The notes under the pieces: model-generated
Database searches by the model: none
Told to the model about the DNA's origin: nothing
Seen by the model: only the letters and a program-made list of their open reading frames with translations
Made by a program: the position numbers and the translations under genes
From: an uncultured Anaerolineae bacterium
Lineage (GTDB): Bacteria; Chloroflexota; Anaerolineae; Anaerolineales; Villigracilaceae
Assembly (NCBI GenBank): GCA_903908605.1
Contig: CAIVSQ010000362.1
Location: 1 to 34,094, forward strand
Length of the DNA stretch: 34,094 bases
Reading direction: 5' to 3'
Shown here: positions 1,860 through 30,820 of the stretch, piece after piece
Position numbering within the stretch: position 1 is the first letter of the stretch
How the letters are laid out: each line of letters starts with the position of its first letter

Positions 1860-2942
1860 ATGCTCGCAACCACCGCATCCACAGCCATCGCCATTGCCGC
1901 CGTACTGACCTTTTACACTGCGCTGCTGCACCTGACGCGTCCAAATAGCAGCCGCTTCTACGCGTTCCGCATTGCGCGAGATCTGATGGTGGGCACACAA
2001 ACCCTGCAATTGTATTTTGTAGCCACCAACCTGCACCTGAAGTACCCGATCGTGTTGTACCCTTTTATCACCCTGCTGTTTCTATCCGGCCCGCTCAACT
2101 ATATCCGCTATTTTAAATTTTTTTACCCTGAGGGGAAGATCCCGCTAAACGTGCTGGTACAAATGATTCCAGCAGGGTTGGTATTTTTGGCGGAGACCTG
2201 GTTTACTTTTTTTACAGACAGCCAGTCGACAGTGCGCAGCCTGTTCGCGAACCCGGCCGGGTATGCGGCGACCTACCTGGTGCTGGCCGGAGTGGTGGTG
2301 GCGTTGATTCAATATGGGGGCTTGCTGCGATTAGAAATCGGCTTTGCCAGCCGGCAAACCACCCGTGAGCCTGTTTTACTCTCAAGCACAATCCTGGTTC
2401 TTTACATGATCAACACCATGCTGATCGCGTTTGGGTTCTTCTTCACCAACCAGGATGTGACAAACCTGGGCATCCTGCTGTTGGGGATCGCGGGCATCAC
2501 CTATCTCTTATTCGAAAACCGTTATCCTGATTTTTACCAACTGGTTGCACGTGAGCAGCGACAGCAGAAATTCAAGAAATCACTTATCCAGGGGCTCAGC
2601 CGGGAAAAAATCATTAACCGGCTGCGCGAGTTGATGGAAGATGAGAAAATTTACCGGCAATTTGACTTGAAGTTGGACGAGGTGGCGACGATGCTTTTTA
2701 TCACGCCGCACCAACTTTCGGAGTTTGTAAACGACTGTATGGGGATGAATTTTTCAAGTTACATCAACCAGTACCGGGTGGAAGAAGCCAAAATGTTGTT
2801 GATGGAGAAACCGGAGGAGAGTACGCTGGTCATTGGCTTCCAGGTGGGGTTTGGGTCGAAGCAATCCTTTAATACAATTTTTAAGCAGCAAACCGGCATG
2901 ACGCCTTCAGGCTATCGCAAGAACAACCCGCAGGCGGGGTAA
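1860..2942 (+). CDS. Membrane-anchored AraC-family transcriptional regulator
   Basis: The 360-residue protein has about seven hydrophobic segments in residues 1-225, starting with a helix at about 5-25. A C-terminal cytoplasmic AraC-type helix-turn-helix domain follows (about 260-355). The second HTH carries the typical signature: V-I-G-F-Q-V-G-F-G-S-K-Q-S-F-N, then F-K-Q-Q-T-G-M-T-P-S-G-Y-R. Family members with this architecture bind DNA from the membrane and sense a ligand or envelope state through the helices. The gene sits 101 bases upstream of the fucosidase operon on the same strand and is the obvious candidate regulator. ATG 1860 is the first start after an in-frame stop; it lacks a ribosome binding site and coincides with the predicted transcription start, so translation is probably leaderless. 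The sensed signal is unknown. Confidence 0.85.
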   Translation: MLATTASTAIAIAAVLTFYTALLHLTRPNSSRFYAFRIARDLMVGTQTLQLYFVATNLHLKYPIVLYPFITLLFLSGPLNYIRYFKFFYPEGKIPLNVLVQMIPAGLVFLAETWFTFFTDSQSTVRSLFANPAGYAATYLVLAGVVVALIQYGGLLRLEIGFASRQTTREPVLLSSTILVLYMINTMLIAFGFFFTNQDVTNLGILLLGIAGITYLLFENRYPDFYQLVAREQRQQKFKKSLIQGLSREKIINRLRELMEDEKIYRQFDLKLDEVATMLFITPHQLSEFVNDCMGMNFSSYINQYRVEEAKMLLMEKPEESTLVIGFQVGFGSKQSFNTIFKQQTGMTPSGYRKNNPQAG

Positions 2943-2976
2943 TAAGGGCGGCTTTAAGAGAAGGAACAAAATATTT

Positions 2977-3011
2977 CGTCACCAAAACGTCAAAATTTAT
3001 AATTTTTGACG
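2977..3011 (+). promoter_or_regulatory. Fucosidase operon promoter and palindromic operator
   Basis: A consensus -10 hexamer TATAAT at 2998-3003 lies inside a 24-bp palindrome (2988-3011) with outer arms CGTCAAAA and TTTTGACG. A third half-site CGTCA at 2977-2981 is a direct repeat of the one at 2988-2992, 11 bases (one helix turn) apart, which is the spacing AraC-type regulators like. There is no good -35 box at the right distance, consistent with an activator-dependent promoter. Binding by the neighbouring regulator is inference. Confidence 0.55.
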
Positions 3012-3043: not shown

Positions 3044-4468
3044 ATGCGATACCAAGCAACCCTCGAGTCCGTAAAAAGCCACCCCTTACCAGATTGGTAC
3101 CAGGATGCCAAGCTGGGGATTTTCGTGCATTGGGGCGTCTACTCTGTGCCGGCGTTTGCGCCCGTTAAAAACAAGGGCAACAGTCACGAAGAAGCGAGCC
3201 TCAGCGAAAATAAAGGCTGGGGGCAATCGCTGTATGCCGAATGGTATCAAAACTCGCTGCGCATTGATGGCAGCCCAACACAGGAATATCACCGAAAAAA
3301 GTACGGCGAAGGTTTTCGCTATGAGCAGTTTGGGGAACTATTCAACAAAGAAATTCAGAAGTGGAACCCGGATGCAATGGCCGAACTATTCGCCCAGGCC
3401 GGAGCTCGTTACGTGGTGCTGGTCAGCAAGCACCACGATGGGTTCCTGATGTGGAAAAGCGGCATCTCCAACCCGCGCATTACGAACTGGCAGGTTTCGC
3501 GCGACGTGGCTGGCGAGCTGAGCCAGGCGGTCAATGCACGTGGCATGAAAATGGGCTTGTATTACTCCAGCCTGCTTGACTGGAGCTTTACGAAGAAACC
3601 GATCAATTCGATTGAAGAATTGGTGGCTGCAAGCGATATCAGCGAAGAGTATGTGGCTTATGTGGAAAAGCACTGGCTGGAACTGATCGAACGCTACGAC
3701 CCCTGGATTTTGTGGAGCGATATCGGCTACCCACCCGGGTATCAACTGCCCAAGCTTTGGGCTCATTATTACAACCATAAACCAGAGGGCGTCATTAACG
3801 ACCGGTGGATACAAATGCCAAAAGGTGCTTTCAGCCGTTTCGGGCGTTTCCTGATTCGCAAGTATATTGAGATTGCAAAACCAACGGCCATACCCGAGCC
3901 TGCGCACAAGGATTTTGTAACGCCTGAGTATGCCACGCTGGACCACATCACAGCCCATAAATGGGAAACCTGCCGGGGGATTGGCAATTCATTTGGATTC
4001 AACCAATTCGAAGATGCCAGTCATTATGAAAGTGCGGATGCTTTAATTCGACTGCTGGCGGACGTGGTCAGTAAAAACGGCAACTTGCTCTTGAACGTCG
4101 GCCCACGCGCCGATGGGTCGCTGCACCCGCTGCAGGTGGAAGCGTTGGAAGGGCTGGGAGCATGGCTAAAGGTGAATGGGGAAGCCATTTACGGAACAAA
4201 ACCGTGGAAACGTTTTACTGACCCCAATGCCGATGGCGCGGAAACCAGGTATACATCCCGCGACGGCGCGCTATATGTGATTGTGATCAAAAAGCCCGAA
4301 AATGGGGTCCTCTGCCTGCCCGTTGAAATGATCGATGCGCAGGTTAACTTGCTCGAAACAGGAGAGGCTCTGCGGATGGAACGTTCCACCGAGGGCCAGC
4401 CGATGGTCAAAATTGCAGACGAGTGGCAGGGCAGTACGATACCTGTCATAAAAATCCATATTACGTAA
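3044..4468 (+). CDS. Alpha-L-fucosidase, glycoside hydrolase family 29
   Basis: This 474-residue enzyme hydrolyses terminal alpha-L-fucosyl residues with retention. The N-terminus shows the GH29 signature W-Y-Q-D-A-K-L-G-I-F-V-H-W-G-V-Y-S-V-P. The S-K-H-H-D-G-F segment binds substrate, and W-I-L-W-S-D-I-G-Y-P carries the probable nucleophile Asp226. The N-G-N-L-L-L-N-V-G-P-R-A-D-G motif closes the barrel. A small C-terminal beta domain follows. There is no signal peptide, so it acts in the cytoplasm on imported fucosides. AGGA at 3033-3036 precedes ATG by 7 bases. It is the first gene of the operon, 15 bases before the transporter gene. The acid/base residue was not assigned. Whether the substrate is a fucoidan fragment, host-type glycan or small fucoside cannot be told. 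Confidence 0.93.
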   Translation: MRYQATLESVKSHPLPDWYQDAKLGIFVHWGVYSVPAFAPVKNKGNSHEEASLSENKGWGQSLYAEWYQNSLRIDGSPTQEYHRKKYGEGFRYEQFGELFNKEIQKWNPDAMAELFAQAGARYVVLVSKHHDGFLMWKSGISNPRITNWQVSRDVAGELSQAVNARGMKMGLYYSSLLDWSFTKKPINSIEELVAASDISEEYVAYVEKHWLELIERYDPWILWSDIGYPPGYQLPKLWAHYYNHKPEGVINDRWIQMPKGAFSRFGRFLIRKYIEIAKPTAIPEPAHKDFVTPEYATLDHITAHKWETCRGIGNSFGFNQFEDASHYESADALIRLLADVVSKNGNLLLNVGPRADGSLHPLQVEALEGLGAWLKVNGEAIYGTKPWKRFTDPNADGAETRYTSRDGALYVIVIKKPENGVLCLPVEMIDAQVNLLETGEALRMERSTEGQPMVKIADEWQGSTIPVIKIHIT

Positions 4469-4483
4469 AACTGAGGAGATGGC

Positions 4484-5854
4484 ATGGAGAAGAAATTGAC
4501 CTTTGGCTATAAGTTGCGTTTTGCCCTGGCTGAGCTGGGATTTAACGTCCTGCGCGCGGCAATGGACTTCTTCCTGCTGTTTTATTACACGGATGTGGCT
4601 GGAATCAACCCGGCGATTGCGAGCAGTGCGCTGCTGGTAGGCAAGTTGACCTGGGATGCAATCAACGACCCGCTGACCGGTTATTTCTCGGACCGGACAA
4701 AATCACGGTTTGGGCGCAGGCGCATCTTTATGTTGATTGCCGCTGTTCCGATCGCACTGGCCTCGTGGATCCAATTTTCGCTACCGCAGGGGATGAGTGG
4801 GGTGGCGGCATTTTTTGCGGTGCTGTTGACTTTCTGGCTAAAGGATACCTTCGTGACACTGGCAATTGTGCCATATGCATCCCTGGTTGCGGAAGTGACG
4901 CACGATTACCAGGAGCGTTCGAGCCTGGCCTTGTACAAGAGCCTGAATTCGGTGGTCGGGTACATCGTTGGCGCGGGGAGCGTGCTGGTTTTTGTGGGGA
5001 TTTTCAAATCGATGGGGTTGGGCCTTTCGGGGTCGTGGAGCGCAACCGGGGCGGTTTTCGGGATCATCGCAATGATTACCCTGCTGGTCAGCACTTTTTC
5101 GATCAAAGAAAGTGCCGAGCAGCAAGAAGAAGCAAATCCCATCCCGGCCTGGGAAGGGGTCAAGTTGTGTTTCAAGAACAAGCCGTTCATGACGCTGATG
5201 AGTGTCTTCCTGCTGGGGTCGTTTGCCTTCACAGCACAGGCAGCGCTGTTCCCTTATCTGATTCAATACCAGTTGGGGATGCAAAGCCAGCTGACCAATA
5301 TCATGGTGCTTTCACTTGTAACAACCGGGCTGTTCTCGCCGGTCGCCAAGCTGCTGGCAGACAAAATTAACAAGGGGCCGGCTTATGCATTGGGCTTGTC
5401 GCTGACAACGGTGACGTTTGTAATGGCCTTTCTTTTCCTGCCCCATCAGCCCACGCCCTGGGTGTATGTTGTCGCAACCGTACTGGGAATCAGTTTTTCG
5501 GCACAGTGGGTTTTACCCTACGCGATGATGCCCGATGTGATCGAATACGACGAACTGCTGACCGGGAAACGCCGTGAAGGAATCTATTACGGAATTTCTA
5601 ACTTTCTGACCAAGTTTTCCAATGCGATGGGGGTGGCAATTCCGGGCTGGGCGCTGAGTTGGTATGGCTATGTTCCAAACGCTGTGCAATCAGAAAGCAC
5701 GCTGTTTGGGATCCGTTTCTTTTACGCGATTGTGCCAGCGGCAGCGATGTTGATTTGTGTACCGCTTTTGCTGCGCTACCCAATCACACGCGACTCACAT
5801 GCCGAATTACTCAAGGAACTGGCAGCCAAGCGCGCCACAGGAACAGCAGAATGA
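4484..5854 (+). CDS. GPH-family (MelB-like) sugar:cation symporter
   Basis: This is a 456-residue, twelve-helix inner-membrane transporter of the glycoside-pentoside-hexuronide:cation symporter family. The N-terminal motif W-D-A-I-N-D-P-L-T-G-Y-F-S-D-R-T followed by K-S-R-F-G-R-R-R matches the MelB helix II and loop 2-3 signature, including the two aspartates used for cation coupling. The segment V-I-E-Y-D-E-L-L-T-G-K-R-R-E-G-I-Y-Y-G in the second half is also typical. It should import a glycoside with H+ or Na+. GAGGAG lies just before ATG. Its place between fucosidase and sulfatase, with a 4-base overlap to the latter, points to uptake of a small sulfated or fucosylated glycoside. The actual substrate is inferred, not shown. 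Confidence 0.9.
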   Translation: MEKKLTFGYKLRFALAELGFNVLRAAMDFFLLFYYTDVAGINPAIASSALLVGKLTWDAINDPLTGYFSDRTKSRFGRRRIFMLIAAVPIALASWIQFSLPQGMSGVAAFFAVLLTFWLKDTFVTLAIVPYASLVAEVTHDYQERSSLALYKSLNSVVGYIVGAGSVLVFVGIFKSMGLGLSGSWSATGAVFGIIAMITLLVSTFSIKESAEQQEEANPIPAWEGVKLCFKNKPFMTLMSVFLLGSFAFTAQAALFPYLIQYQLGMQSQLTNIMVLSLVTTGLFSPVAKLLADKINKGPAYALGLSLTTVTFVMAFLFLPHQPTPWVYVVATVLGISFSAQWVLPYAMMPDVIEYDELLTGKRREGIYYGISNFLTKFSNAMGVAIPGWALSWYGYVPNAVQSESTLFGIRFFYAIVPAAAMLICVPLLLRYPITRDSHAELLKELAAKRATGTAE

Positions 5855-7272
5855 AGGCAGGTAAGGGTGAGGCGTTACCACACCTTCCCTCACGCCCAAA
5901 TATCGTAATCATCAACTGTGATGACCTGGGCTACGGTGATCTGCCGCCGTACGGAAATACGGTGATTAACACACCGCACATCAACAACCTGGCGGAAGGC
6001 GGGGTGAAGTTTACTTCCTTCTATGCCTGCAATTCACTGTGCACGCCTTCACGTTTCGGGCTGTTAACCGGGCGGTATGCCGACCAGGCAGGCCTGGGCT
6101 GGGTATTGGGCGCAAAACGCGAAGGCTACCGCGCACCGGTCAACTCGCGCTGGGAAGATTTGCAGGGAAAAATCTGGTGGGAAGTCGCCAAGTTCGTTTC
6201 GCGGCGTGGTCTGATGGATTACAGCAACGAGCCCAGGGAACGCGGTATCGCCGCGAAGGAAATTACGATCGCCAAGGCACTGAAGGCGGTCGGCTACCGG
6301 ACAGGGATGGTCGGTAAGTGGCACCTGGGTGAATTCCCGGTATATCCGCAATACCATCCGCTGCAGCACGGGTTTGATCACTTTTTTGGGGTGCCCCACA
6401 GCAATGACATGAAGGATTTCGCGCTGTACCGCGATAACGAGTGCCTGTCTCCGGATTTCACTGAGATGGAACAACTGACCGGGCTGTATACCCAGGAAGC
6501 AACGAAGTTTATCGAGGAAAACAGTGCTGAACCGTTTTTCCTTTATTTTGCCCACACCTATCCACACCAGCCCCTGCACGCATCGGAGAATTTCCGCGGA
6601 AAATCACGGGGTGGCTTGTATGGCGACACAATCGAGGAGATTGATTGGAGCCTGGGTGAGCTGGAAAAAACCTTAAAAGCACGTGGGCTGTGGGAGAAGA
6701 CGCTGGTGGTTTTCACCAGTGACAATGGTGTCTGGTACAACGGCAGCAGCGGCAACCTGCGCGGCCGAAAGGGTCAAAGCTATGAAGGTGGTTACCGCAT
6801 CCCAATGATCGCGCAGTGGCCTGAGGTAATCCCGGCTGGCAGTGTGTGTGATGCAGCGGCAATGAATATTGACTGGTTCCCGACCTGCCTGGCGCTGGCA
6901 GGAGTCGATCTACCCGTGGACCGGGTCATTGATGGCAAGAATATCCTCGGTCTGCTGACCGGTGAGGAAGCTGAAAGCCCGCACGAGGTGCTGTACTACT
7001 ATCACAACGAGAGCCTGGAGGCGCTGCGAGCCGGCAAATGGAAGTACATCCCGCGCATCCATACCTATGTATGGCCTGTACCACTGGATAAATTCTGGGC
7101 TTCGGCCGGAAGCGCGCAAGCACCCTGGTTATATGACCTGGAAAGCGACCCGCAAGAAGCCTACAACCTGAAACACAATCACCCCGAAGTGATCCAGGAC
7201 CTGCAGAAAAAATTCCTGGCATGGGAAGCAAGAATGAAGGCGGATCCGGGCGGGTGGATTACGCTCAAATGA
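5851..7272 (+). CDS. Type I (formylglycine) sulfatase, cytoplasmic
   Basis: The 473-residue arylsulfatase-fold enzyme belongs to the S1 class. The catalytic signature C-T-P-S-R is at residues 64-68 (Cys64 would be matured to formylglycine). Metal ligands D24/D25 lie in I-N-C-D-D-L-G-Y-G-D, G-M-V-G-K-W-H-L-G supplies the lysine and histidine, and F-T-S-D-N-G-V the late Asp-Asn pair. There is no signal peptide, so desulfation would be intracellular, unlike most marine-type sulfatases. The start ATG 5851 overlaps the transporter stop by four bases (ATGA), indicating translational coupling; the frame stays open further upstream but that part lies inside the transporter gene. Maturation needs a formylglycine-generating enzyme or anSME, neither of which is in this window. 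The substrate is probably a sulfated fucoside or its aglycone (inference from neighbours). Confidence 0.92.
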   Translation: MKAGKGEALPHLPSRPNIVIINCDDLGYGDLPPYGNTVINTPHINNLAEGGVKFTSFYACNSLCTPSRFGLLTGRYADQAGLGWVLGAKREGYRAPVNSRWEDLQGKIWWEVAKFVSRRGLMDYSNEPRERGIAAKEITIAKALKAVGYRTGMVGKWHLGEFPVYPQYHPLQHGFDHFFGVPHSNDMKDFALYRDNECLSPDFTEMEQLTGLYTQEATKFIEENSAEPFFLYFAHTYPHQPLHASENFRGKSRGGLYGDTIEEIDWSLGELEKTLKARGLWEKTLVVFTSDNGVWYNGSSGNLRGRKGQSYEGGYRIPMIAQWPEVIPAGSVCDAAAMNIDWFPTCLALAGVDLPVDRVIDGKNILGLLTGEEAESPHEVLYYYHNESLEALRAGKWKYIPRIHTYVWPVPLDKFWASAGSAQAPWLYDLESDPQEAYNLKHNHPEVIQDLQKKFLAWEARMKADPGGWITLK

Positions 7273-7342
7273 CAGGGTTCGCACTGGCATTTCTTTTTGA
7301 CTTTTTATATTCATTGGGTTTTCTACTATTCTGGAGGAAAGC

Positions 7343-9043
7343 ATGTCTGATCATAAATTCGTTCCCAACTGGACAAATATACCACCCGTGGCCGGCTCAT
7401 ACCGCTCGATCGTGAAGGAGGGACGGCAGGATCAGGTAAAGGTGCCGACGCATGAATATTTCGAGCAGCTCAAACGTGATCTCAAACTGGAAGATGGCTA
7501 CTTTAGCAATAAGCAAGATGGCAACCAGCCGCTGCAGAATATCCCCGCATCAAACCTGGATGGGACAGTTATTGAAGAAATCAAGGCCATTGTTGGGACT
7601 GAGAATGTGCAGGTGGATGATTACAGCCGGGTGAAATACAGTTATGGCAAGCTGGCAGAGGAAATGGTCAGTCTTAAACGCGGCATTTTGCACGAAATTA
7701 CTGGCGCGGCTGTGCATCCACGCAACAAGCTCGAGGTACAAAAGATTGTGCAGTTGTGCAATGAAAAGAAAATCCCCGTGTATGTCTATGGCGGCGGCTC
7801 AAGCTGCAACATGGGCTTCAAACCCGAAAAAGAGGGTGTGACGCTGGTGCTGAACACCTACATGAACAAAGTCATTGAAGTGAACGAGCTGAACCACACC
7901 TGCCGAGTGCAGGCTGGCTGCATGGGTCCGCAACTGGAAGATGCACTGAACAACGCCCCCGAGAAATTCCATACAGTTCACCGCTTCACCAACGGGCATT
8001 TCCCCCAGTCCTTTGAGCTTTCCAGCGTGGGCGGCTGGATATTAACACTGGGCAGTGGGCAGGCCTCAACATACTACGGCGAGCCATACAACCTTGTGCT
8101 TTCCATGGAAATGGTCACCCCGGCCGGTTTGATCAGTACGCACGATTACACCAGCACGGCCACCGGCCCACGGATCCTGGATATGCTGAAGGGCAGCGAG
8201 GGGGTTTTTGGTGTCTTGGTTGAACTGACAATCAAAATTTTCCGCTACATGCCTGAGAATCGCAAACATTTTGGGTATATGTTCAAGGATTGGGAGAGCG
8301 CAGTCAGCGCATCTCGTGAGGTATGCCAGGGTCAGTTTGGGCTGCCGGCCGTCTTCCGCCTTTCGGACGCGCATGAAACTGATCACGGTTTCCAGATGTA
8401 TCCCCAACCACCGATCGTGGAATGGGGCCTGAACATGCTGGGCTACAAACCCAAAAAGCGCTGCGTGATGATGGGCACGGTCGAAGGAGAACGTGACTTT
8501 ACCCAAATGGTACAGGGCAAAATTGCTAAAATCGCAGGTCAGCACGGTGCCTTGAGCATTGGCGGCGGTTTCTCAAAGAGCTGGGAGAAGGACCGTTACG
8601 AATCTTTCCTGATCGGTGAAGCCATTAGCGATTACGACATCATCATGGACACAGTCGAGACGTCGGTGAAGTGGGATAACCTCCACCATATCCATGATTC
8701 TGTACTGGCATACGCGCATTCCGTGCCCGGAACGCTGTGCATCAGTCACATGTCACACTTCTATCCATATGGGAGTAACCTGTATTTTATCTTTGGCATC
8801 AAAGGCAGCGTGGAAGATTATGTCAAGTACCGCACGGCACTGGTAGACGCGATGGTGAAGGCAGGTGGCTCACCAAGTCATCATCACGGCGTGGGACGAT
8901 TGATGCACCAATGGATGGAAGGCTTCCTGGGTAAAAATGAGATGGATGTGTTACGCACGCTAAAAAACCACTTTGACCCCAACAACATTATGAATCCCGG
9001 TCGCCAACTTGGCCTGGATGTGCCCGACGAATTGAAACGGTAA
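7343..9043 (+). CDS. FAD-binding oxidase, alkyl-DHAP synthase (AGPS)-like
   Basis: The 566-residue flavoprotein of the VAO/PCMH type has an FAD_binding_4 domain (about 110-290) and an FAD-linked oxidase C-terminal domain. The segment V-Y-G-G-G-S-S-C-N-M-G is the FAD pyrophosphate loop. F-E-L-S-S-V-G-G-W corresponds to the AGPS E-F-S-T-V-G-G-W, and the triple-histidine motif H-H-H-G-V-G-R at 513-519 corresponds to the AGPS active-site motif. AGPS makes the ether bond of alkyl-DHAP; related bacterial proteins include oxidases of other hydroxy compounds. The T-R-A-S-G motif usual in the family is here T-L-G-S-G, so its chemistry may differ. GGAGGAAA precedes ATG. The gene is 70 bases after the sulfatase gene and four bases before the kinase gene. 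Confidence 0.82.
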   Translation: MSDHKFVPNWTNIPPVAGSYRSIVKEGRQDQVKVPTHEYFEQLKRDLKLEDGYFSNKQDGNQPLQNIPASNLDGTVIEEIKAIVGTENVQVDDYSRVKYSYGKLAEEMVSLKRGILHEITGAAVHPRNKLEVQKIVQLCNEKKIPVYVYGGGSSCNMGFKPEKEGVTLVLNTYMNKVIEVNELNHTCRVQAGCMGPQLEDALNNAPEKFHTVHRFTNGHFPQSFELSSVGGWILTLGSGQASTYYGEPYNLVLSMEMVTPAGLISTHDYTSTATGPRILDMLKGSEGVFGVLVELTIKIFRYMPENRKHFGYMFKDWESAVSASREVCQGQFGLPAVFRLSDAHETDHGFQMYPQPPIVEWGLNMLGYKPKKRCVMMGTVEGERDFTQMVQGKIAKIAGQHGALSIGGGFSKSWEKDRYESFLIGEAISDYDIIMDTVETSVKWDNLHHIHDSVLAYAHSVPGTLCISHMSHFYPYGSNLYFIFGIKGSVEDYVKYRTALVDAMVKAGGSPSHHHGVGRLMHQWMEGFLGKNEMDVLRTLKNHFDPNNIMNPGRQLGLDVPDELKR

Positions 9044-9047
9044 CCAG

Positions 9048-10643
9048 ATGAACAGCCAACCACGCTCAAGTGACGATCTGATCCTGGCGTTTGACGCCGG
9101 AACCCAATCCGTACGCTGTGGGTTGTTCGATGTGACTGGGCGGATGGTGGATTTTACCAAGATACCGATCACGCCTTACTTCTCAACAGCGCCGGGCTTT
9201 GCTGAACAACATGCCGAGTATTTCTGGCAAAAATTCTGTGAAGCCAGCCTTGCACTGCTGGCCCGTAACACCGCCCTGAAGCAGCGCATCAGGGCGGTGA
9301 CGGTAACCACGCAACGTGGGGTGTATGTAAACCTGGATCGGGAAGGCAAGGCACTCCGCCCGGCCATCTCGTGGTTGGACCGCCGCGAAGCCTACCCAAC
9401 CCACTTTGCGCCGTTCTGGTTGGAGGCCGGTTTGAAAACGATCGGTCTGTACGGCGTGGTGGATAAATTAAACCGGAAGGGCTTTTCGAACTGGATCAGG
9501 CAGCATCAGCCGGAGGTATGGGAGAAAACTCATAAGTACGTACTGCTTTCGGGCTTTTTTCATTACCAATTGAGCGGGGTTTTTGCTGAATCACTTGGCA
9601 CCAACTTTGGATACCTGCCAATCAACATGAAAACCTTTGGCTGGGCAGATAAATACGACATTATCTGGTTCCCCTTCCCAATCGAGAAGGATAAACTGCC
9701 CGAACTGGTGCCCCAGGGCAGCACAATTGGAACGGTAACCAGGCAAGCCGCACTTGAAACCGGCATCCCCGAAGGAATCCCGGTGACGGCGGCGGCGTGC
9801 GATAAATCCTGCGAGGTGCTGGGCAGCGGGACGCTGACTCCCGAGATCGGCTACCTGAGCTTTGGAACCTGCGCCACTGTTAATACGATCACGACCAAAC
9901 CGGTGGATTTACTGCCGTACCTGCCGCCTTACCCGGGGGCAGTACCCGGAACCTACTGTACAGAAATTCCGATTGACCGGGGATTTTGGATGGTGAGCTG
10001 GTTCAAGGAAGAATTTGGCCACAAAGAAGTGCAGATGGCGGCTGAACGCGGGGTTGCTGCGGAAATGCTGTTTGAGGAAATGATCGCAGGGATTTCGCCC
10101 GGGTGCAACGGGCTGATCTTGCAACCTTACTGGAGCCCCGACCGGGTCTACTGTGATGAATACGGCCGAGGCGCAATTGCCGGTTTTAGCGAAAGTCATA
10201 CGCGCGCGCACCTGTACCGAGCGATCCTGGAAGGAATTGTGTTTGCGCTGAAAGACGGTGCAAACATCACCACAGGCAAACTGGGCCATCCTTTTACGAA
10301 ATTACGTATCTCAGGTGGGGGCGCACAAAGCAAAACTGCCGTGCAAATCGCGGCGGATGTGTTTGACCTGCCGGTTGAACGACCAAGTATTGCCGAAACA
10401 TCTGCCCTGGGCGCGGCAATGATTGCCGCAGTGGGGTTGGGATACTACCGTGATTATAGTGATGCCGTAAAGGGGATGACCAGCATCCAGGAAGTGGTGC
10501 AGCCAATTGCGAGGAACCGCGACTTGTATGAGCAAATTTACAACCGCATCTACCGCAAGATGTACAACCAGCTAAAACCGATTTACAAAGAAATGGCGGC
10601 GATTACGGAGACCTATCCTGAATTGATTCCGCCAGCAAAATGA
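9048..10643 (+). CDS. FGGY-family carbohydrate or polyol kinase
   Basis: This 531-residue member of the ASKHA superfamily has both FGGY domains. F-D-A-G-T-Q-S-V-R at the start is the phosphate-1 loop, S-W-L-D-R-R-E corresponds to the substrate-contacting W-x-D-x-R region, and A-C-D-K-S-C-E carries the probable catalytic base Asp252. S-F-G-T-C-A-T-V-N is the phosphate-2 loop and I-S-G-G-G-A-Q-S-K the adenosine motif. Family members phosphorylate glycerol, xylulose, erythritol, fuculose and similar substrates; the residues I can read do not fix which. It starts four bases after the flavoenzyme stop and precedes a GlpD-like dehydrogenase, an arrangement that resembles the kinase/dehydrogenase pairs GlpK-GlpD and EryA-EryB. 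A kinase for glycerol or a C4-C5 polyol is therefore a reasonable, unproven guess. Confidence 0.88.
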   Translation: MNSQPRSSDDLILAFDAGTQSVRCGLFDVTGRMVDFTKIPITPYFSTAPGFAEQHAEYFWQKFCEASLALLARNTALKQRIRAVTVTTQRGVYVNLDREGKALRPAISWLDRREAYPTHFAPFWLEAGLKTIGLYGVVDKLNRKGFSNWIRQHQPEVWEKTHKYVLLSGFFHYQLSGVFAESLGTNFGYLPINMKTFGWADKYDIIWFPFPIEKDKLPELVPQGSTIGTVTRQAALETGIPEGIPVTAAACDKSCEVLGSGTLTPEIGYLSFGTCATVNTITTKPVDLLPYLPPYPGAVPGTYCTEIPIDRGFWMVSWFKEEFGHKEVQMAAERGVAAEMLFEEMIAGISPGCNGLILQPYWSPDRVYCDEYGRGAIAGFSESHTRAHLYRAILEGIVFALKDGANITTGKLGHPFTKLRISGGGAQSKTAVQIAADVFDLPVERPSIAETSALGAAMIAAVGLGYYRDYSDAVKGMTSIQEVVQPIARNRDLYEQIYNRIYRKMYNQLKPIYKEMAAITETYPELIPPAK

Positions 10644-10667
10644 GGATCGCCATTGTCGGGTGGTCGA

Positions 10668-10686
10668 GGCGCAGCGCCGCTGCGCC
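10668..10686. repeat. REP-like palindrome between kinase and dehydrogenase genes
   Basis: A perfect palindrome of two 9-bp arms (GGCGCAGCG and CGCTGCGCC) around one base. It resembles the palindromes near 28925 and 31691 and, like the latter, is followed within a few bases by AGCTG. It occupies the only large gap between the oxidoreductase-kinase genes and could affect mRNA stability between kinase and dehydrogenase. Confidence 0.6.
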
Positions 10687-10763
10687 CGCTAGCTGATGGA
10701 AAAGAAAGAGCTGGAGAGCCAGCAAGATACGCTGCCATTCACAGGCAGAAGGAGCCAGTTCGC

Positions 10764-12404
10764 ATGAAACGCTTTATTGAGACACACAACGGCAAAGCCT
10801 ACGATATGATCGTGATAGGCGGCGGGATCAGCGGCGCGGCAGTAGCGTATGAGGCCGCATCACGGGGTTACTCTGTCGCACTGGTGGAAAAGGGTGATTT
10901 TGGAGCGGGGACTTCGGCTGCAACCTCCAAACTGATACACGGTGGGCTGCGCTACCTGGCTAATTTTGAGCTGGGGTTGGTGCGCGAATCGCTGAAGGAA
11001 CGCAAAACGCTTGAGAACATCGCCCCCAATTTTGTAAATCCAATGCCCTTCCTGGTGCCGCTGCACAAAACCGGTGTGCGCAACAAGTGGATCCTTGAAC
11101 CAGGGATGATCATTTACGACATGCTGTCTTATGACAAGGGCTTCACCTGGGATAAGAGCAAGAAACTTCCCTGGCACCGGCTGCTCTCACGCAAAGAAGC
11201 GCTGGGGATGGAACCCATCATCCAGGCAGAGGACCTGACCGGGGCGATTTTGTATTACGATTGCGCCAATTTGAACCCGGAACGGCTGACATTGGCGTTT
11301 GTCAAGTCGGCGGTGAGGCATGGGGCTGAGGTGGCCAACTACACCCGGGCGGAGGATTTTATCCATGAGGCCGGGGCGATTGGCGGGGTGGTGGCACGCG
11401 ACCTGTTAAATGATAAAACGACCAACCTGCGCGGAAAATGGGTGATCAACTGCGGCGGCCCATGGGCAGACATCCTGCTGGGTGTTGCGCGCGGGAAAGC
11501 CGGCTCAGGTCATATTCGCCGCTCGGAGGGAATTCACCTTGTGACGCGAAAGATCACCAATGCAAGCGCGGCGGTCGGTGGGCTGACACCTTCAGGGCGG
11601 CCATGCAACCTGATCCCGTGGCGCGGGCATACGCTGATCGGCACAACCGACCGCGAATACGTGGGCAACCCCGATCAATATTGTGTGACTCGGGAAAAAA
11701 TTGAGGAGTATATTGGCGAGGTAAACGCGGCATTTGGCGACCCAGGTCTGGTGAAATACGAAGAGATTGTATATGCCTATGGTGGGCTGCGGCCATTGGT
11801 CGATGACCAGACAAAGGACGTCTACAAGAGCTCACGAAAATACGAGATTTTTGATCACGCCAATGAAGGTATGCCGGGGCTGGTGACGGTTGAAGGTGGC
11901 AAGTACACCACCAGCCGCAACCTGGCAGAGCATGTGCTGATGACAATAACCAAGCAGTGGGCGCAGCAGCGCTGCGCTACTGGATCGGTAAGTGCAAAGA
12001 AACCGCTGGCAGGCTGCGAAATCCGCGACATGGCGGCATTTTTGAGTTCTGCCAAAACGAAGAACCGTGACTTTGATGAAACCGGGCTGGACTACCTGGC
12101 ACGCATGTATGGCACCGAGCTGGATAGGCTGCTGAGCCTGGCACGCAGTGAAAAGCCATTGGCTGAGCGTTTGAATGCGGACGGCGAGATGCCGGCCCAG
12201 GCAGTCTACGCCATTCGGAATGAAATGGCACAGACACTGACGGATATTCTCATACGCAGGACAGGCCTGGGAACCTTGGGCTACCCGGGGAATGCCGTGG
12301 TGGAGCAAATCGCCCAAATCGCCGCGCGAGAGTTACAATGGAATCAGGCAAGACTGGACCGGGAGTTGGAAAACGCTAAAAAGGCGATCTCGCTGCCCGG
12401 ATAA
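10764..12404 (+). CDS. FAD-dependent glycerol-3-phosphate dehydrogenase-like protein
   Basis: The 546-residue protein belongs to the GlpD/GlpA/EryB group of DAO-fold dehydrogenases, which oxidise glycerol-3-phosphate or polyol phosphates and pass electrons to quinone at the membrane. The Rossmann motif V-I-G-G-G-I-S-G-A is near residue 15, followed by the group signature A-A-T-S-K-L-I-H-G-G-L-R-Y-L. Later come D-R-E-Y, Y-G-G-L-R-P-L and V-E-G-G-K-Y-T-T-S-R, and a C-terminal DAO_C domain with I-R-N-E-M-A-Q-T-L-T-D. ATG 10764 is preferred: AGAAGGAG lies 9 bases upstream and homology starts here; the frame is open further up, but that part contains the REP-like palindrome. It follows the kinase by 120 bases and precedes the DUF2270 gene by 14. 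The exact polyol phosphate is not determined. Confidence 0.87.
   Translation: MKRFIETHNGKAYDMIVIGGGISGAAVAYEAASRGYSVALVEKGDFGAGTSAATSKLIHGGLRYLANFELGLVRESLKERKTLENIAPNFVNPMPFLVPLHKTGVRNKWILEPGMIIYDMLSYDKGFTWDKSKKLPWHRLLSRKEALGMEPIIQAEDLTGAILYYDCANLNPERLTLAFVKSAVRHGAEVANYTRAEDFIHEAGAIGGVVARDLLNDKTTNLRGKWVINCGGPWADILLGVARGKAGSGHIRRSEGIHLVTRKITNASAAVGGLTPSGRPCNLIPWRGHTLIGTTDREYVGNPDQYCVTREKIEEYIGEVNAAFGDPGLVKYEEIVYAYGGLRPLVDDQTKDVYKSSRKYEIFDHANEGMPGLVTVEGGKYTTSRNLAEHVLMTITKQWAQQRCATGSVSAKKPLAGCEIRDMAAFLSSAKTKNRDFDETGLDYLARMYGTELDRLLSLARSEKPLAERLNADGEMPAQAVYAIRNEMAQTLTDILIRRTGLGTLGYPGNAVVEQIAQIAARELQWNQARLDRELENAKKAISLPG
11959..11978. repeat. REP-like core inside the dehydrogenase gene
   Basis: The 17 bases at 11959-11975 (GGGCGCAGCAGCGCTGC) are identical to 27798-27814, also within a gene. 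The stretch is read in frame and encodes part of a hydrophilic loop (W-A-Q-Q-R-C-A). Confidence 0.45.
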
Positions 12405-12418
12405 TTGGAAAGGACGCG

Positions 12419-13465
12419 ATGAGCACAGAAAGCGAATTACCACCCGAGGATTCGGTCTGGACATACCGGGGCTATCATCTTAAGACAGGTGAATTTGTCA
12501 CTGCGATGGTACACCTATTCCGGGCCGAGGTGCAGCGGGCCAATGTCTGGCGACAGCGACTGGATGCGACCACAAACTGGGCGGTGGTTGCGACAGGTGC
12601 ATCGATTTCGCTATCCTTCAGCCAGCCAAACGCACATCACGGCATCATCATTCTGAACATCCTGCTGGTGACATTGTTCCTGTTTATCGAAGCCAGGCGC
12701 TACCGGTATTACGAGCTGTGGAGCTACCGCATTCGCCTGATGGAAACCGATTTTTATGCGGCCATGCTGGTGCCACCTTTTCATCCCTCGCCAGAATGGG
12801 CCGAGAGCCTGGCCGAAAATTTACTGCTGCCAAGTTTCCCGATATCGATGTGGGAGGCATTTGGGCGGCGGTTACGCAGAAATTACCTGGCCATCCTGGT
12901 GATCCTGGGAATGTCGTGGGTGGGTAAGGGTTTCCTTTTCCCAATACCGGCCACAAGTTGGGGAGAATTTGTTTCGCGCAGTGCAATCGCAAGCATTTCC
13001 GGGCAGGTGGTAATTGCGATGGGTGCGATTTACTATGGATTCCTGGTCATTGTCGCAATCGCCACCATGGGGCTGAACAAGGCAACCGGTGAGGTACTGC
13101 CCAGGTATGGAGCGGACGATGAAAGCAAAAACCCTTTTCAGAAAGAGAGGGCTGAAGGCGTAAAAAGTTGGTTGCATCCGAATAAACGACGCAGTCAGTT
13201 TTTGGCAATCATCATTACCGAAAAGCCTGAGAAAATTGCAAAAAATATCCTTGGGAATTTAAAACGAGGTGTAACGGCCATGCAGGGGAAAGGAATGTAT
13301 ACCGGAAGCGAGCGTTCCGTGCTAATGTGTGCGCTGACGGTGACAGAAATTCACAGCCTGAAAGCGACGATCGCCGAGGAAGACCCGCAGGCTTTTGTGA
13401 TTGTATCGCCAGCCCAGGAGATCCTGGGGCGGGGGTTCAACCCATTAAAGGACGCTGCTGATTAG
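12419..13465 (+). CDS. DUF2270 membrane protein fused to a DUF2179 domain
   Basis: The protein has 348 residues. The N-terminal two thirds match DUF2270: F-R-A-E-V-Q-R-A-N-V-W-R-Q-R-L-D, then transmembrane pairs near 58-90 and 155-225, with A-R-R-Y-R-Y-Y-E-L-W-S-Y-R-I between. The last ~85 residues match DUF2179, the cytosolic domain found at the end of YitT-type membrane proteins: I-I-I-T-E-K-P, then L-M-C-A-L-T-V-T-E-I and ending in F-V-I-V-S-P-A-Q-E-I-L-G-R-G-F. Neither domain has an established function; DUF2179 resembles small regulatory ligand-binding domains. GGAAAGGA precedes ATG. The gene is 14 bases after the dehydrogenase and last before a strong terminator, so it is cotranscribed with the catabolic genes, but its role there is unknown. 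Confidence 0.8.
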   Translation: MSTESELPPEDSVWTYRGYHLKTGEFVTAMVHLFRAEVQRANVWRQRLDATTNWAVVATGASISLSFSQPNAHHGIIILNILLVTLFLFIEARRYRYYELWSYRIRLMETDFYAAMLVPPFHPSPEWAESLAENLLLPSFPISMWEAFGRRLRRNYLAILVILGMSWVGKGFLFPIPATSWGEFVSRSAIASISGQVVIAMGAIYYGFLVIVAIATMGLNKATGEVLPRYGADDESKNPFQKERAEGVKSWLHPNKRRSQFLAIIITEKPEKIAKNILGNLKRGVTAMQGKGMYTGSERSVLMCALTVTEIHSLKATIAEEDPQAFVIVSPAQEILGRGFNPLKDAAD

Positions 13466-13496
13466 CCGACGGCGGGCGATTTCATTTCGCCTTATA

Positions 13497-13552
13497 AACG
13501 TGATTGCCGCGACCAAGCCCTGGAGGCTGAGCGCGGCAATCACGTTTTTTTA
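13497..13552 (+). terminator. Strong rho-independent terminator closing the operon
   Basis: A perfect 15-bp stem (AACGTGATTGCCGCG at 13497-13511 with its complement at 13532-13546) and a 20-base loop are followed by a T-run to 13551. It lies between the DUF2270 gene and the convergent GH3 gene. On the minus strand only TTTATAA follows the hairpin, so termination there would be weaker. Confidence 0.92.
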
Positions 13553-25731: not shown

Positions 25732-26808
25732 TTAAAAGACGGGGGTATCGAGGGAGTTGGGGCCAACGGCGGGGAATTCGAGCATAAAGCGGGTGCCCTG
25801 GCCGGGCTGGCTGGCAGCGGTGATATCGCCACCATGGGCGCGGACCAACTGGCGGGCGATGGCCAGGCCCAGGCCGCTGCCCGAGCCGGCGCGGGTGCGA
25901 GAGCGATCCCCTTTCCAGAAACGGTCAAAGATGAAGGGCAGGTCGGCAGGGTCAATCCCGGAGCCTGTATCGGTGACTGTGACCTGGATGATGCCTTCCG
26001 AAGAAACAGCCTGCAGGCGAATGGACCCGGCGGACGGGGTGTGACGCAGGGCATTGGCGACAAGGTTCGAGAGGACCTGGTCGAGGCGGTCATAATCGGC
26101 CAGGATGGTCAGTTCGGGTGGACAATCAGAGGCAAGAGTGACCCCCTGCTCGGCGGCGCGGGGAGAGAAACTGGCGGTCACATCCTCGAGCAAGTCTGAG
26201 AGGGGGAAACGGGTGGGGTGCAGGGGCAGTTGACCGCTTTCAGCCAGGGAGAGGGTTTGAAGATCGGCAACCAGGCGGGCAAGCAGGCGGGTTTCATCGA
26301 GCATGGAGGAGAGGTTATCGGGGGTGGGTTCGTAGATACCATCCAGCATCCCTTCAAGATTGCCCTGGATGATGTGGAGGGGGTTGCGAAGTTCATGGGC
26401 GATATCGGTGGTAAGGTTGCGGCGCTGCTGATCGGCGCGGGCAAGCTCGGAGGTCATGTGATTGAAACGACGGGCCATCTCACGGATGGGGCGCGGACCA
26501 TGCTCGCTGAGGCGCACGCTGAGATCACCGCGGCTGATGGCATCGGTGGCCGACATGATATCGACAAAGGGACGGGCATAACGGCGGAAGCCAAAGCGAC
26601 CCATAATACTGGCTGCCATGAGAAAGAAGATGGGGATCAGGCAGACGAGGGGATTAAAATGCCAGCTTTGGGGGCGCTGAAAATCGGTGGGCGGGGTGCC
26701 CGTAACCAACCAGAAGACCAGGCCAATGCCGAGCAGGAAAAAAACGGTCAACCCGCCAAAGAGCAGGAGAAAACCCCAAAAGACAAAACGACGGCCGGGA
26801 TGCTTCAT
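25732..26808 (-). CDS. Sensor histidine kinase with short extracytoplasmic loop
   Basis: The 358-residue kinase has two transmembrane helices (about 10-36 and 54-70) separated by a loop of only about 18 residues, which suggests sensing within the membrane or through a partner protein. A HAMP domain follows (about 75-128), then a HisKA domain with D-I-A-H-E-L-R-N-P-L (phospho-acceptor His138). The HATPase domain has the N box N-L-V-A-N-A-L-R-H, G1 box D-T-G-S-G-I and G2 box G-S-G-L-G-L-A-I. The ATG overlaps the response-regulator stop by four bases, so the two are translationally coupled. The kinase is last in a minus-strand series that begins with a His-rich membrane protein. Confidence 0.93.
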   Translation of the reverse strand: MKHPGRRFVFWGFLLLFGGLTVFFLLGIGLVFWLVTGTPPTDFQRPQSWHFNPLVCLIPIFFLMAASIMGRFGFRRYARPFVDIMSATDAISRGDLSVRLSEHGPRPIREMARRFNHMTSELARADQQRRNLTTDIAHELRNPLHIIQGNLEGMLDGIYEPTPDNLSSMLDETRLLARLVADLQTLSLAESGQLPLHPTRFPLSDLLEDVTASFSPRAAEQGVTLASDCPPELTILADYDRLDQVLSNLVANALRHTPSAGSIRLQAVSSEGIIQVTVTDTGSGIDPADLPFIFDRFWKGDRSRTRAGSGSGLGLAIARQLVRAHGGDITAASQPGQGTRFMLEFPAVGPNSLDTPVF

Positions 26809-27488
26809 GGGCGGTCCAGTTCCACCAGGCGATAGCCTATGCCATAGACGGTTTCGATGGCGAGGCGGGCATTTTCCAGCTTGCGACGCAGGTTTTTGAT
26901 GTGCGAATCGATGCTACGGTCGAGGCCGACCGGGCTGGCGCCGTAGGTCTCATCCATCAACATTTCGCGGGTGAGAGTCTGGCCAGGGCGGCGCGCCAGG
27001 ATGACGAGCAGCTTGAACTCATTGGGGGTCAGGTGAACAGGTGTGTCGCCATGGCGAACGGTGTAAGCGGCTTCATCGATCTCGAGAGCGCCAATGATGT
27101 GGCGAGCGGGGGCGGAAACCTGCCCCTGGGCACGCCGCAACATGGCCCGCACACGGGCCACCAGGGCACGCGGAGAGAAGGGCTTGGTGATGTAATCATC
27201 AGCACCCAACTCGAGGCCAACCACCTGGTCACTTTCTTCGGTAAGAGCGGTGAGCATAATAATGGGGACGTCACTCTCGCGGCGCAGCACACGGCAAACT
27301 TCGCGACCATCCATGCCAGGTAACATGAGGTCGAGGATGATCAGGGCCGGGCGCTCACGGCGGGCCATCAGCAGGGCGGAGGGACCATCGGCGCAAACCA
27401 TGACGCGGAAGCCATTTTTCTCGAGATAATCGCGTGCCAGGCGGGAAACCTTGGGTTCGTCATCGACGACGAGGATTAGTTCTTGCAT
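26805..27488 (-). CDS. OmpR/PhoB-family response regulator
   Basis: The 227-residue regulator has a receiver domain (1-120) with the acidic pair D9/D10-E11, phospho-acceptor Asp53 in I-L-D-L-M-L-P-G-M-D-G, and Lys102 in Y-I-T-K-P-F. A winged-helix DNA-binding domain (about 130-225) contains L-T-P-N-E-F-K-L-L, D-R-S-I-D-S-H-I-K-N-L-R-R-K-L and T-V-Y-G-I-G-Y-R-L. ATG 27488 is chosen because the receiver domain begins at residue 4; the frame is open far upstream, but that part lies opposite the terminator and inside the neighbouring gene. No clear Shine-Dalgarno is present before this ATG. It partners the histidine kinase encoded directly downstream. Confidence 0.93.
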   Translation of the reverse strand: MQELILVVDDEPKVSRLARDYLEKNGFRVMVCADGPSALLMARRERPALIILDLMLPGMDGREVCRVLRRESDVPIIMLTALTEESDQVVGLELGADDYITKPFSPRALVARVRAMLRRAQGQVSAPARHIIGALEIDEAAYTVRHGDTPVHLTPNEFKLLVILARRPGQTLTREMLMDETYGASPVGLDRSIDSHIKNLRRKLENARLAIETVYGIGYRLVELDRP

Positions 27489-27504
27489 ATAGAAAGTGTA
27501 TCCT

Positions 27505-27539
27505 AAAAAAGGAAAAAGGGGCGGGTTGGACCCGCCCCT
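27505..27539 (-). terminator. Terminator between the His-rich protein and the two-component system
   Basis: On the minus strand a perfect 10-bp stem (AGGGGCGGGT with ACCCGCCCCT, 3-base loop, 27517-27539) is followed by TTTTTCCTTTTTT. It lies 11 bases after the stop of the small membrane-protein gene and upstream of the response regulator, so it should end or attenuate transcription between them. Confidence 0.8.
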
Positions 27540-27550
27540 GTGGAAAAGAT

Positions 27551-28015
27551 TTACTTGTTTTCGGGCTGTGGATTCTCGGGCTGGGCCGGGGCTTGCGGAG
27601 CAGGCTGCTGCGCCCAGGGCGGCATGTGACCATGCTGCCAACCGTGGTGCATCATGCGGCGGAAGAAGATCATGCGCATGGCGCCAAAGAACAAAAAGCC
27701 GAAGAACAAGAAGGCGAGAATTCCGCCAAAGGGATTGAAGCCGAAGTGATGCCCATAAGCCATGGGGTAGCCACCGAACATCATGGGGCCGGGGTACGGG
27801 CGCAGCAGCGCTGCACCCCAACGGGGGTAAGCGCCGAAAGCGTAGGGAACAGGGAGTGCACCGGCATTCTTCTGCCAGGTTTGCATTTGCTCGGCGATGG
27901 CGGGGCTATCGGTGACGCCGCGGGCATAGCCCATGCGGAAGGCACCACCGCCGACAATAGCGAGCAGGGCCAGGACGACCAGTACACGTAAAACGATAAA
28001 GATTGGTTTTTTCAT
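27551..28015 (-). CDS. Small His/Pro-rich two-helix membrane protein
   Basis: The 154-residue protein has an N-terminal transmembrane helix (about 5-28), an extracytoplasmic segment rich in Tyr, Gly and Pro (Y-P-R-W-G, P-Y-P-G-P-M-M-F-G-G-Y), and a second helix (about 97-118). The tail has R-M-M-H-H-G-W-Q-H-G-H-M-P-P-W and then repeated P-Q-A-P-A-Q-P-E-N. I do not recognise a family. The cluster of His and Met in the tail could bind a metal such as copper, which would fit a sensing or buffering role near the two-component genes; this is inference. GGAG lies 5-6 bases before ATG. A REP-like palindrome at 27798-27818 is read in frame. Confidence 0.7.
   Translation of the reverse strand: MKKPIFIVLRVLVVLALLAIVGGGAFRMGYARGVTDSPAIAEQMQTWQKNAGALPVPYAFGAYPRWGAALLRPYPGPMMFGGYPMAYGHHFGFNPFGGILAFLFFGFLFFGAMRMIFFRRMMHHGWQHGHMPPWAQQPAPQAPAQPENPQPENK
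27798..27818. repeat. REP-like palindrome inside a coding sequence
   Basis: It reads GGGCGCAGC, AGC, GCTGCACCC. It equals the reverse complement of the element at 31691-31711 except for the three central bases. It contributes the residues around W-G-A-A-L-L-R-P of the His-rich membrane protein. Confidence 0.6.
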
Positions 28016-28961: not shown

Positions 28962-29021
28962 TTTTTTAATCCAAGTATGGTTACAACAGGTAGTTAATTG
29001 CCCCTAAGCGAGGAATCGATT

Positions 29022-30814: not shown

Positions 30815-30820
30815 GGAAGT

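Follow-up and report, generated by a model that had tools for sequence, protein, structure and literature searches.

A sulfatase-linked operon carrying an AGPS-like flavoenzyme, an FGGY kinase and a GlpD-like dehydrogenase in an uncultured Anaerolineae bacterium, and a candidate route of glyceryl ether cleavage

The DNA analyzed here, called the window, is the whole of contig CAIVSQ010000362.1 (G000:C362; 34,094 bases) from the metagenome-type, 612-contig assembly of an uncultured Anaerolineae bacterium (G000; completeness 91.5%, contamination 6.4%). On its forward strand, a fucosidase gene, a transporter gene and a sulfatase gene are followed by genes for three enzymes, namely a relative of AGPS (alkyl-dihydroxyacetone phosphate [DHAP] synthase), an FGGY kinase and a relative of GlpD, which we refer to as the trio. 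A preliminary description made from the letters alone had read this run of genes as an operon for a sulfated fucoside. Our comparison indicates that it belongs, as a member joined to a sulfatase, to a widespread GlpD-AGPS-FGGY module that most probably acts on glyceryl ethers, and that it should not be read as a fucoside operon.

Gene content of the operon and its flanking elements

An AraC-family regulator gene (positions 1860 to 2942, forward strand), whose product appears by eye to have a membrane-embedded N-terminal half, lies directly upstream of the operon genes. It is followed by a 24-nucleotide palindrome, CGTCAAAATTTATAATTTTTGACG (2988 to 3011), a probable operator that overlaps a promoter-like site at 2976 to 3003. 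The operon genes, all on the forward strand, then encode a GH29 alpha-L-fucosidase (3044 to 4468; PF01120, 9.2e-90), a GPH/MFS_2 symporter (4484 to 5854; TIGR00792, 261.9 bits against a cut-off of 231.35) and a type I sulfatase (5851 to 7272; PF00884, 1.2e-55) with the motif CTPSR at residue 64 (C/S-x-P-x-R). Next come the trio genes, encoding the AGPS-like flavoenzyme (7343 to 9043; PF01565 and PF02913), the FGGY kinase, which is related to Escherichia coli YgcE (9048 to 10643), and the GlpD-like dehydrogenase (10764 to 12404; DAO and DAO_C domains), an enzyme linked to flavin adenine dinucleotide (FAD). The run ends with a DUF2270-DUF2179 membrane protein (12419 to 13465) and an intrinsic terminator (13496 to 13552, forward strand). 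Families were assigned with Pfam and NCBIfam profiles, which bore out every gene named in the preliminary description. Its statement that the enzymes lack a signal peptide agreed with a hydropathy scan, run in place of a signal-peptide predictor, in which the N termini of the sulfatase and GH29 were not strongly hydrophobic.

Two gene starts differ from those of the open reading frame (ORF) list. For the sulfatase the most likely start is ATG 5851, which gives a four-base overlap with the symporter stop; the listed TTG 5659 is an upstream extension. The GlpD-like protein most likely starts at ATG 10764 and not at TTG 10653, where its ORF opens, and a homologous protein in another genus, described below, starts alike. 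Folding of the 100 bases 3′ of the last gene yielded a 16-pair stem (about 13496 to 13547) followed by a T run, with a folding energy of -50.1 kcal/mol (z -6.4) that none of 200 shuffles equaled, so that the strong terminator noted earlier was confirmed; a simple terminator scan of the window had missed it. The operon would likely be read as one transcript, with some caution called for by the 70-base gap between the sulfatase and AGPS genes, which holds a weak promoter-like match (9 of 12 positions).

Conservation of the operon and spread of the trio

To place the operon among relatives, we compared it with G034, a genome from another genus of the same family. There the order is AraC, palindrome, GPH symporter, sulfatase, AGPS, FGGY, anaerobic sulfatase maturase and GlpD, spread over two contigs. 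Contig C86 ends in the N-terminal part of the sulfatase gene and continues outwards with the GPH and AraC genes, while C101 carries the C-terminal part of the sulfatase gene, then AGPS, FGGY, a radical SAM protein and GlpD. The two sulfatase pieces, 76% identical to the window protein, cover query residues 5 to 314 (C86) and 269 to 470, suggesting that the two contigs are adjacent. The radical SAM protein between FGGY and GlpD passes the anaerobic sulfatase maturase cut-off (397.3 versus 349.45 bits). The other shared proteins are 77% (AraC), 76% (GPH), 88% (AGPS), 75% (FGGY) and 79% (GlpD) identical. The palindrome is the same at 22 of 24 positions, lies between AraC and the first operon gene in both genomes, and occurs at a single place in each when up to three mismatches are allowed; its reversed control occurs at none. 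Since both the gene order and the palindrome are conserved, AraC, palindrome, transporter, sulfatase and trio travel together. Thus, the joining of the sulfatase part to the trio, as proposed from the window alone, holds in a second genus together with regulator and palindrome, and conservation in G034 does not stop at the sulfatase but continues through the trio.

No GH29 gene lies between AraC and GPH in G034. Its GH29 (68% identical) is on a separate contig, C200; the part of C200 that was read showed no match to any further gene of the window, and the stretch of G034 designated L031 had no match to the DUF2270 protein. On this comparison, GH29 and the DUF2270 protein are accessory to the operon. 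Among 101 genomes of relatives up to the same order, GH29 at E <= 1e-60 was found in two (G000 and G034), and AGPS of at least 39% identity over its full length in four (G000, G034, G088 and G075). When 400 genomes sampled from the phylum were searched, five, including G000, had AGPS at E <= 1e-130. The four further Chloroflexota loci from that search all had GlpD near AGPS, in L158 on the opposite strand; FGGY was present in three of them and FadR in one. In a Dehalococcoidia bin (L092), an AraC gene 62% identical to that of the window directly precedes AGPS. The operon's distribution is patchy.

The trio itself reaches much further. A species-genome collection scanned with four AGPS proteins of the window type gave at least 580 confirmed relatives, of which the best 80 were kept; neighborhoods were counted in 79 of them, leaving out L129, whose AGPS was hidden by the ORF choice. 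Because these 79 loci are the best-matching part of the family, the fractions do not stand for all AGPS relatives. Within 4 kilobases (kb) of AGPS, GlpD was present in 58 loci, FGGY in 39, both in 32 and a FadR-like GntR regulator in 46, with none of these in 13. Among the 41 loci whose sequence extends 4 kb to either side of AGPS, the figures were 32, 20, 18 and 28, with none in six (L053, L056, L078, L096, L103 and L130). Record titles of the AGPS loci name Deltaproteobacteria (many of them Smithella, such as L061), Spirochaetes (such as L105), Bacteroidetes groups, Hydrogenedentota, Chloroflexota and others. No AGPS relative was found in viral contigs (39 pattern matches).

FGGY was absent within 4 kb in 40 loci, and 16 of the genomes concerned were searched for it. 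Each gave one kinase match (E <= 2.3e-130, 42 to 49% identity, cut-off 1e-60), either outside the AGPS stretch read or in genomes whose AGPS locus is cut, such as L054 and L092. A named strain, Maribellus maritimus 5E3, has GlpD with AGPS in L102 and the kinase in its genome. Other FGGY kinases in eight trio-bearing genomes reached at most 31% identity. In the 101 relatives, with cut-offs of E <= 1e-60 for AGPS (L036 protein as query) and E <= 1e-80 for the kinase, AGPS was present in 26 (25 by the cut-off, plus G000) and the kinase in 20; 17 genomes had both, 9 AGPS only, 3 the kinase only and 72 neither. This gives an odds ratio of 45 (Fisher p 3e-10), with cut-offs chosen by us and genomes that are not independent. 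G019 and G098 carry more distant AGPS-like genes that fall under the 1e-60 cut-off. In three loci from relatives of the same taxonomic order, L043, L044 and L048, AGPS adjoins GlpD without FGGY, so that the set can occur without its kinase.

Only two of the gene families met repeatedly near the trio stand out, the GntR/FadR-like regulator and a DUF362 protein. The latter (representative L073:4639-5970) occurs near the trio in nine loci and far from it in none, whereas a two-component protein was not enriched (11 loci near, 9 far). The regulator was near the trio in 46 loci and far in none, and FadR_C was matched in all 46 and FCD in 39. FadR-type regulators were seen in same-order loci L036, L037 (a fragment, by eye), L045, L047, L049 and L051. 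All five of the same-order regulators tested, which precede the trio, pass NCBIfam FadR NF003444 (209.7 to 225.0 against a cut-off of 189) and stay below the stricter TIGR02812 cut-off of 249.2, and PF07840 (FadR_C) was present in all three scanned with Pfam. We read these matches as lipid-type regulation of the trio in some Chloroflexota and as suggestive of it elsewhere.

Two AGPS-like enzymes were observed in other settings. One (L038:2000-3775) lies between two genes that by eye are short-chain-dehydrogenase-like and acyltransferase-like and may belong to a biosynthetic ether-lipid cluster in that relative. The other (L046:13837-15282) has EHH for HHH, another context and, by eye, a GntR-type gene nearby, and represents a different branch of the family.

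Active-site residues and the substrate

The best solved match of the window AGPS was 2uuu (AGPS; 7.8e-60), the next molecule being a glycolate oxidase at 1.4e-17. Columns were then read in the 78 loci whose AGPS exceeds 450 residues. The column of mammalian R419 was located by counting in the alignment of the window AGPS, and Tyr508 of the Dictyostelium enzyme corresponds to window Y481 by an inferred numbering offset. A passage of PMC3509576 presents this Tyr508 as the essential base and describes a flavin-DHAP adduct. The Arg, the putative base Tyr and the HHH motif are kept in the window and in all 78 loci, whereas GlcD of E. coli and a GlcD-type paralogue from the window's own genome have E, H and GEH at those columns.

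R317, R332 and K354 are conserved in all 55 GlpD-like enzymes compared and R54 in 54, the remaining one having a gap there; the window protein keeps all four, which we take to be residues of the glycerol-3-phosphate site. The window protein scores 319.2 bits against the NF008899 equivalog cut-off of 360 and is therefore a GlpD relative, not GlpD proper. In the kinase, the positions of GlpK Arg83, Trp103 and Asp245 are kept, Asp245 presumably being catalytic. Glu84, presumably the glycerol-binding residue, is replaced by Ala, Ser, Asn, Gly or Thr in 38 of 38 proteins. The window kinase has Gly there and lies below the GlpK equivalog cut-off (TIGR01311, 140.7 of 590.35 bits). Judged from the alignment, the replacement of Glu84 could make room at C1 of the substrate. 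G000 also encodes an ordinary GlpK, which scores 616 bits to its E. coli counterpart and whose gene lies two genes away from one for a GlpD-related FAD protein; thus, the trio is not the sole glycerol route in this genome.

The window sulfatase is nearest, among solved structures, to steryl-sulfatase (1.9e-75), followed by arylsulfatase A (1.6e-61), GalNAc-6-sulfatase (3.3e-60) and carrageenan sulfatases (from 3.3e-56), unlike a control sulfatase of G000, which prefers GlcNAc-6-sulfatase. This pattern fits a sulfated lipid or aromatic ester, a sugar sulfate being possible as well. Elsewhere in G000, contig C387 (L145:7081-9672) carries a second sulfatase gene and, directly after it, a radical SAM gene whose maturase-like product scores 302 bits to the maturase of G034 and might also mature the window enzyme. 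For the symporter, the nearest solved relative is the lysolipid transporter MFSD2A, a likeness that was dropped as support for a lipid substrate when a paralogue was found to rank alike. MelB Asp19, Asp124, Trp128 and Arg149, which we take to be sugar residues, are changed in the symporter and also in the four paralogues compared, so that these positions are likewise uninformative.

The nearest solved relative of GH29 is the fucosidase 1hl8, and the positions that we take to be the nucleophile Asp and the acid/base Glu are kept in the alignment. The gene suggests an added fucosyl-type residue on the substrate, in G000 only. A search for the fucose isomerase C-domain (PF02952) gave no match in G000, at its 91.5% completeness, or in G034, other fucose routes not being searched; the control set matched E. 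coli, Deinobacterium and Thermotoga. Import followed by desulfation in the cytoplasm, as first proposed, fits the gene content. A fucoside as the defining substrate is not supported, given the G034 operon without GH29 and the missing isomerase match, nor is plain oxidation of an aglycone, whether glycerol or polyol: G000 encodes a GlpK apart from the trio, near a GlpD-related gene, and such oxidation leaves the AGPS-like enzyme without a role. A sulfated ether glycolipid is one possible substrate, a sulfated glycosylglycerol another.

Beyond the operon, the window holds upstream a protein with an S-layer homology repeat (662 to 1456), secreted in appearance by eye. A two-component system (25732 to 27821, reverse strand) faces an ABC transporter with two ABC2_membrane_6 subunits (28998 to 31609, forward strand). 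Near the contig end is a phage-type gene, encoding a terminase large subunit (31743 to 33269, reverse strand; phrog_38 6.4e-81, Pfam Terminase_6C), and it adjoins two ABC2_membrane_6 proteins.

A proposed route of glyceryl ether cleavage and its rivals

We propose, with slightly less than even confidence, that this is an AraC-controlled catabolic operon that imports a sulfated O-substituted glycerol compound, desulfates it and feeds it to the three-enzyme module. The symporter would bring in the small sulfated compound and the sulfatase would strip its sulfate in the cytoplasm, where in G000 GH29 might remove an alpha-L-fucosyl or similar residue. The FGGY kinase would then phosphorylate the free sn-3 hydroxyl, and the GlpD-like enzyme would oxidize the sn-2 hydroxyl to a ketone, giving 1-O-substituted DHAP. 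Finally, the AGPS-like flavoenzyme would attack C1 beside the ketone through flavin N5 and expel the substituent, releasing DHAP (or acyl-DHAP) and an alcohol, in a reversal of the reaction by which AGPS forms ethers. Reversal is proposed because the kinase and the FAD-linked dehydrogenase of glycerol-3-phosphate type would together make 1-O-substituted DHAP, the product of AGPS; such a pair, as in GlpK and GlpD, argues for oxidation. We infer the direction, the alkyl ether chain as the substituent and the sulfated nature of the natural substrate, a glyceryl ether being the most likely substrate of the trio. A broader proposal is that GlpD-AGPS-FGGY cleaves glyceryl ethers independently of oxygen, by reversed alkyl-DHAP synthase chemistry, in several phyla, with the window operon as a branch for sulfated ether (glyco)lipids; this we advance only tentatively, with the balance leaning against it.

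Several observations weigh against this reading of the operon. AGPS is known as an ether-forming enzyme, and the weak point of the proposed cleavage is its leaving group, alkoxides leaving poorly. Gln replaces the middle His of HHH in the AGPS of the FadR-type same-order loci (4 of 4 aligned: L036, L043, L045 and L047). The lipid link by way of FadR comes from relatives only, the window operon having AraC and no FadR; no FadR-type regulator was seen in same-order L032, L033, L034, L035, L043, L044 and L048, FCD outscores FadR_C in both regulators of the wider set whose scores were compared, L055 (57.0 versus 41.1) and L095 (64.3 versus 35.1), and the L055 regulator is under the NCBIfam FadR cut-off. 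At the chosen cut-off the kinase is missing from 9 of the 26 genomes that carry AGPS, and in L053, L054 and L092, whose AGPS is closely related, neither GlpD nor FGGY was seen in the stretches read (L054 and L092 are cut near AGPS). Acyl-CoA synthetases occur in seven loci near the trio and one far, with two of the seven on the AGPS strand. In the comparison of the window sulfatase, the scores of GalNAc-6-sulfatase and the carrageenan sulfatases come near that of arylsulfatase A, and the likeness of the symporter to MFSD2A, which a G000 paralogue shares, says nothing about the substrate.

Two rivals stand next. The set may serve ether-lipid synthesis or salvage, with the kinase salvaging alkylglycerols, AGPS making alkyl-DHAP and GlpD interconverting alkyl-DHAP and alkyl-glycerol-3-phosphate. 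The fully kept AGPS-type residues favor this, although an FAD-linked GlpD is normally oxidative, so that a reductase would be expected, and the operon's transporter and sulfatase look catabolic. A sulfate-reducing bacterium is known to contain ether lipids, yet passages of the same source ascribe ether formation in Desulfatibacillum to Ger and give ElbD as the other described bacterial route (PMC11150832). On balance, we consider synthesis or salvage unlikely. In the second rival, the same three-step chemistry would act on a substituent that is a sulfated sugar or other polar group, as in a glycosylglycerol, and cut the link without a glycosidase. The naming of GPH symporters for glycosides (TIGR00792), the GH29 and sulfatase genes, which could point to a sugar, and AraC in place of FadR in the window clade agree with a polar substituent, whereas the frequent FadR-like regulators beside the wider module and the lack of GH29 conservation do not; we rate it as improbable to a similar degree.

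The model of the preliminary description, in which a sulfated fucosyl-glycerol or fucosyl-polyol is imported, hydrolyzed by GH29 and its aglycone oxidized by the kinase and dehydrogenase, has in its favor the gene content and the kept GH29 positions; the absence of GH29 from the G034 operon, the separate GlpK for glycerol, the lack of a fucose isomerase C-domain match by the search described above and an AGPS without a role make it very unlikely. Least probable of all, the AGPS-like protein might be a 2-hydroxy-acid or sugar-acid dehydrogenase of a polyol or aldonate pathway, as its superfamily, with glycolate oxidase and D-lactate dehydrogenase, and a similar pair, ygcU and ygcE, which E. coli carries next to a gene for a putative deoxygluconate dehydrogenase, would allow; AGPS-type in place of GlcD-type residues in 78 of 78 loci and the AGPS-type Arg, Tyr and HHH of YgcU itself speak against it.

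The module resembles known systems in part. It shares family and compared active-site residues with alkyl-DHAP synthase (2uuu, 4bby), but the window enzyme is bacterial, is encoded with kinase and GlpD-like genes and no acyltransferase among the operon genes, and is proposed to act in cleavage. GlpK-GlpD glycerol catabolism likewise pairs an FGGY kinase with an FAD dehydrogenase that has the glycerol-3-phosphate-site residues; in the window, however, the kinase has no Glu84 equivalent, AGPS is added and the genome has its own GlpK. The erythritol system EryA-EryB, which acts on a polyol, likewise pairs an FGGY kinase with a GlpD-like dehydrogenase. To our knowledge that system has no AGPS, and the window operon genes include no isomerase. 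The ygcU-ygcE region of E. coli K-12 (L148) has AGPS-like and FGGY homologues (136.7 and 212.6 bits to the window proteins), both annotated "putative", and the region read has no GlpD, sulfatase or FadR. Because it keeps the AGPS-type Arg, Tyr and HHH, YgcU, annotated as a putative FAD dehydrogenase, may be no ordinary dehydrogenase. A search of the open-access literature found no paper naming both ygcU and ygcE as whole words, and no description of a pathway with the GlpD-AGPS-FGGY set, most subscription journals lying outside its scope.

Archaeal and bacterial ether lipids persist in anoxic sediments and serve as biomarkers, and Smithella, Deltaproteobacteria, Spirochaetes, Bacteroidetes groups and Chloroflexota are largely anaerobic lineages. 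Cleavage of the glyceryl ether bond, as proposed for the trio, is carried out by alkylglycerol monooxygenase, which passages of a 2021 review (PMC7911779) describe as the sole enzyme known to do so and as needing O2 and tetrahydrobiopterin; the route proposed for the trio would be oxygen-free. The conserved kinase-dehydrogenase-AGPS module thus offers named genes with which oxygen-free turnover of ether lipids may be tested, and a lead on the uncharacterized ygcU and ygcE genes of E. coli.

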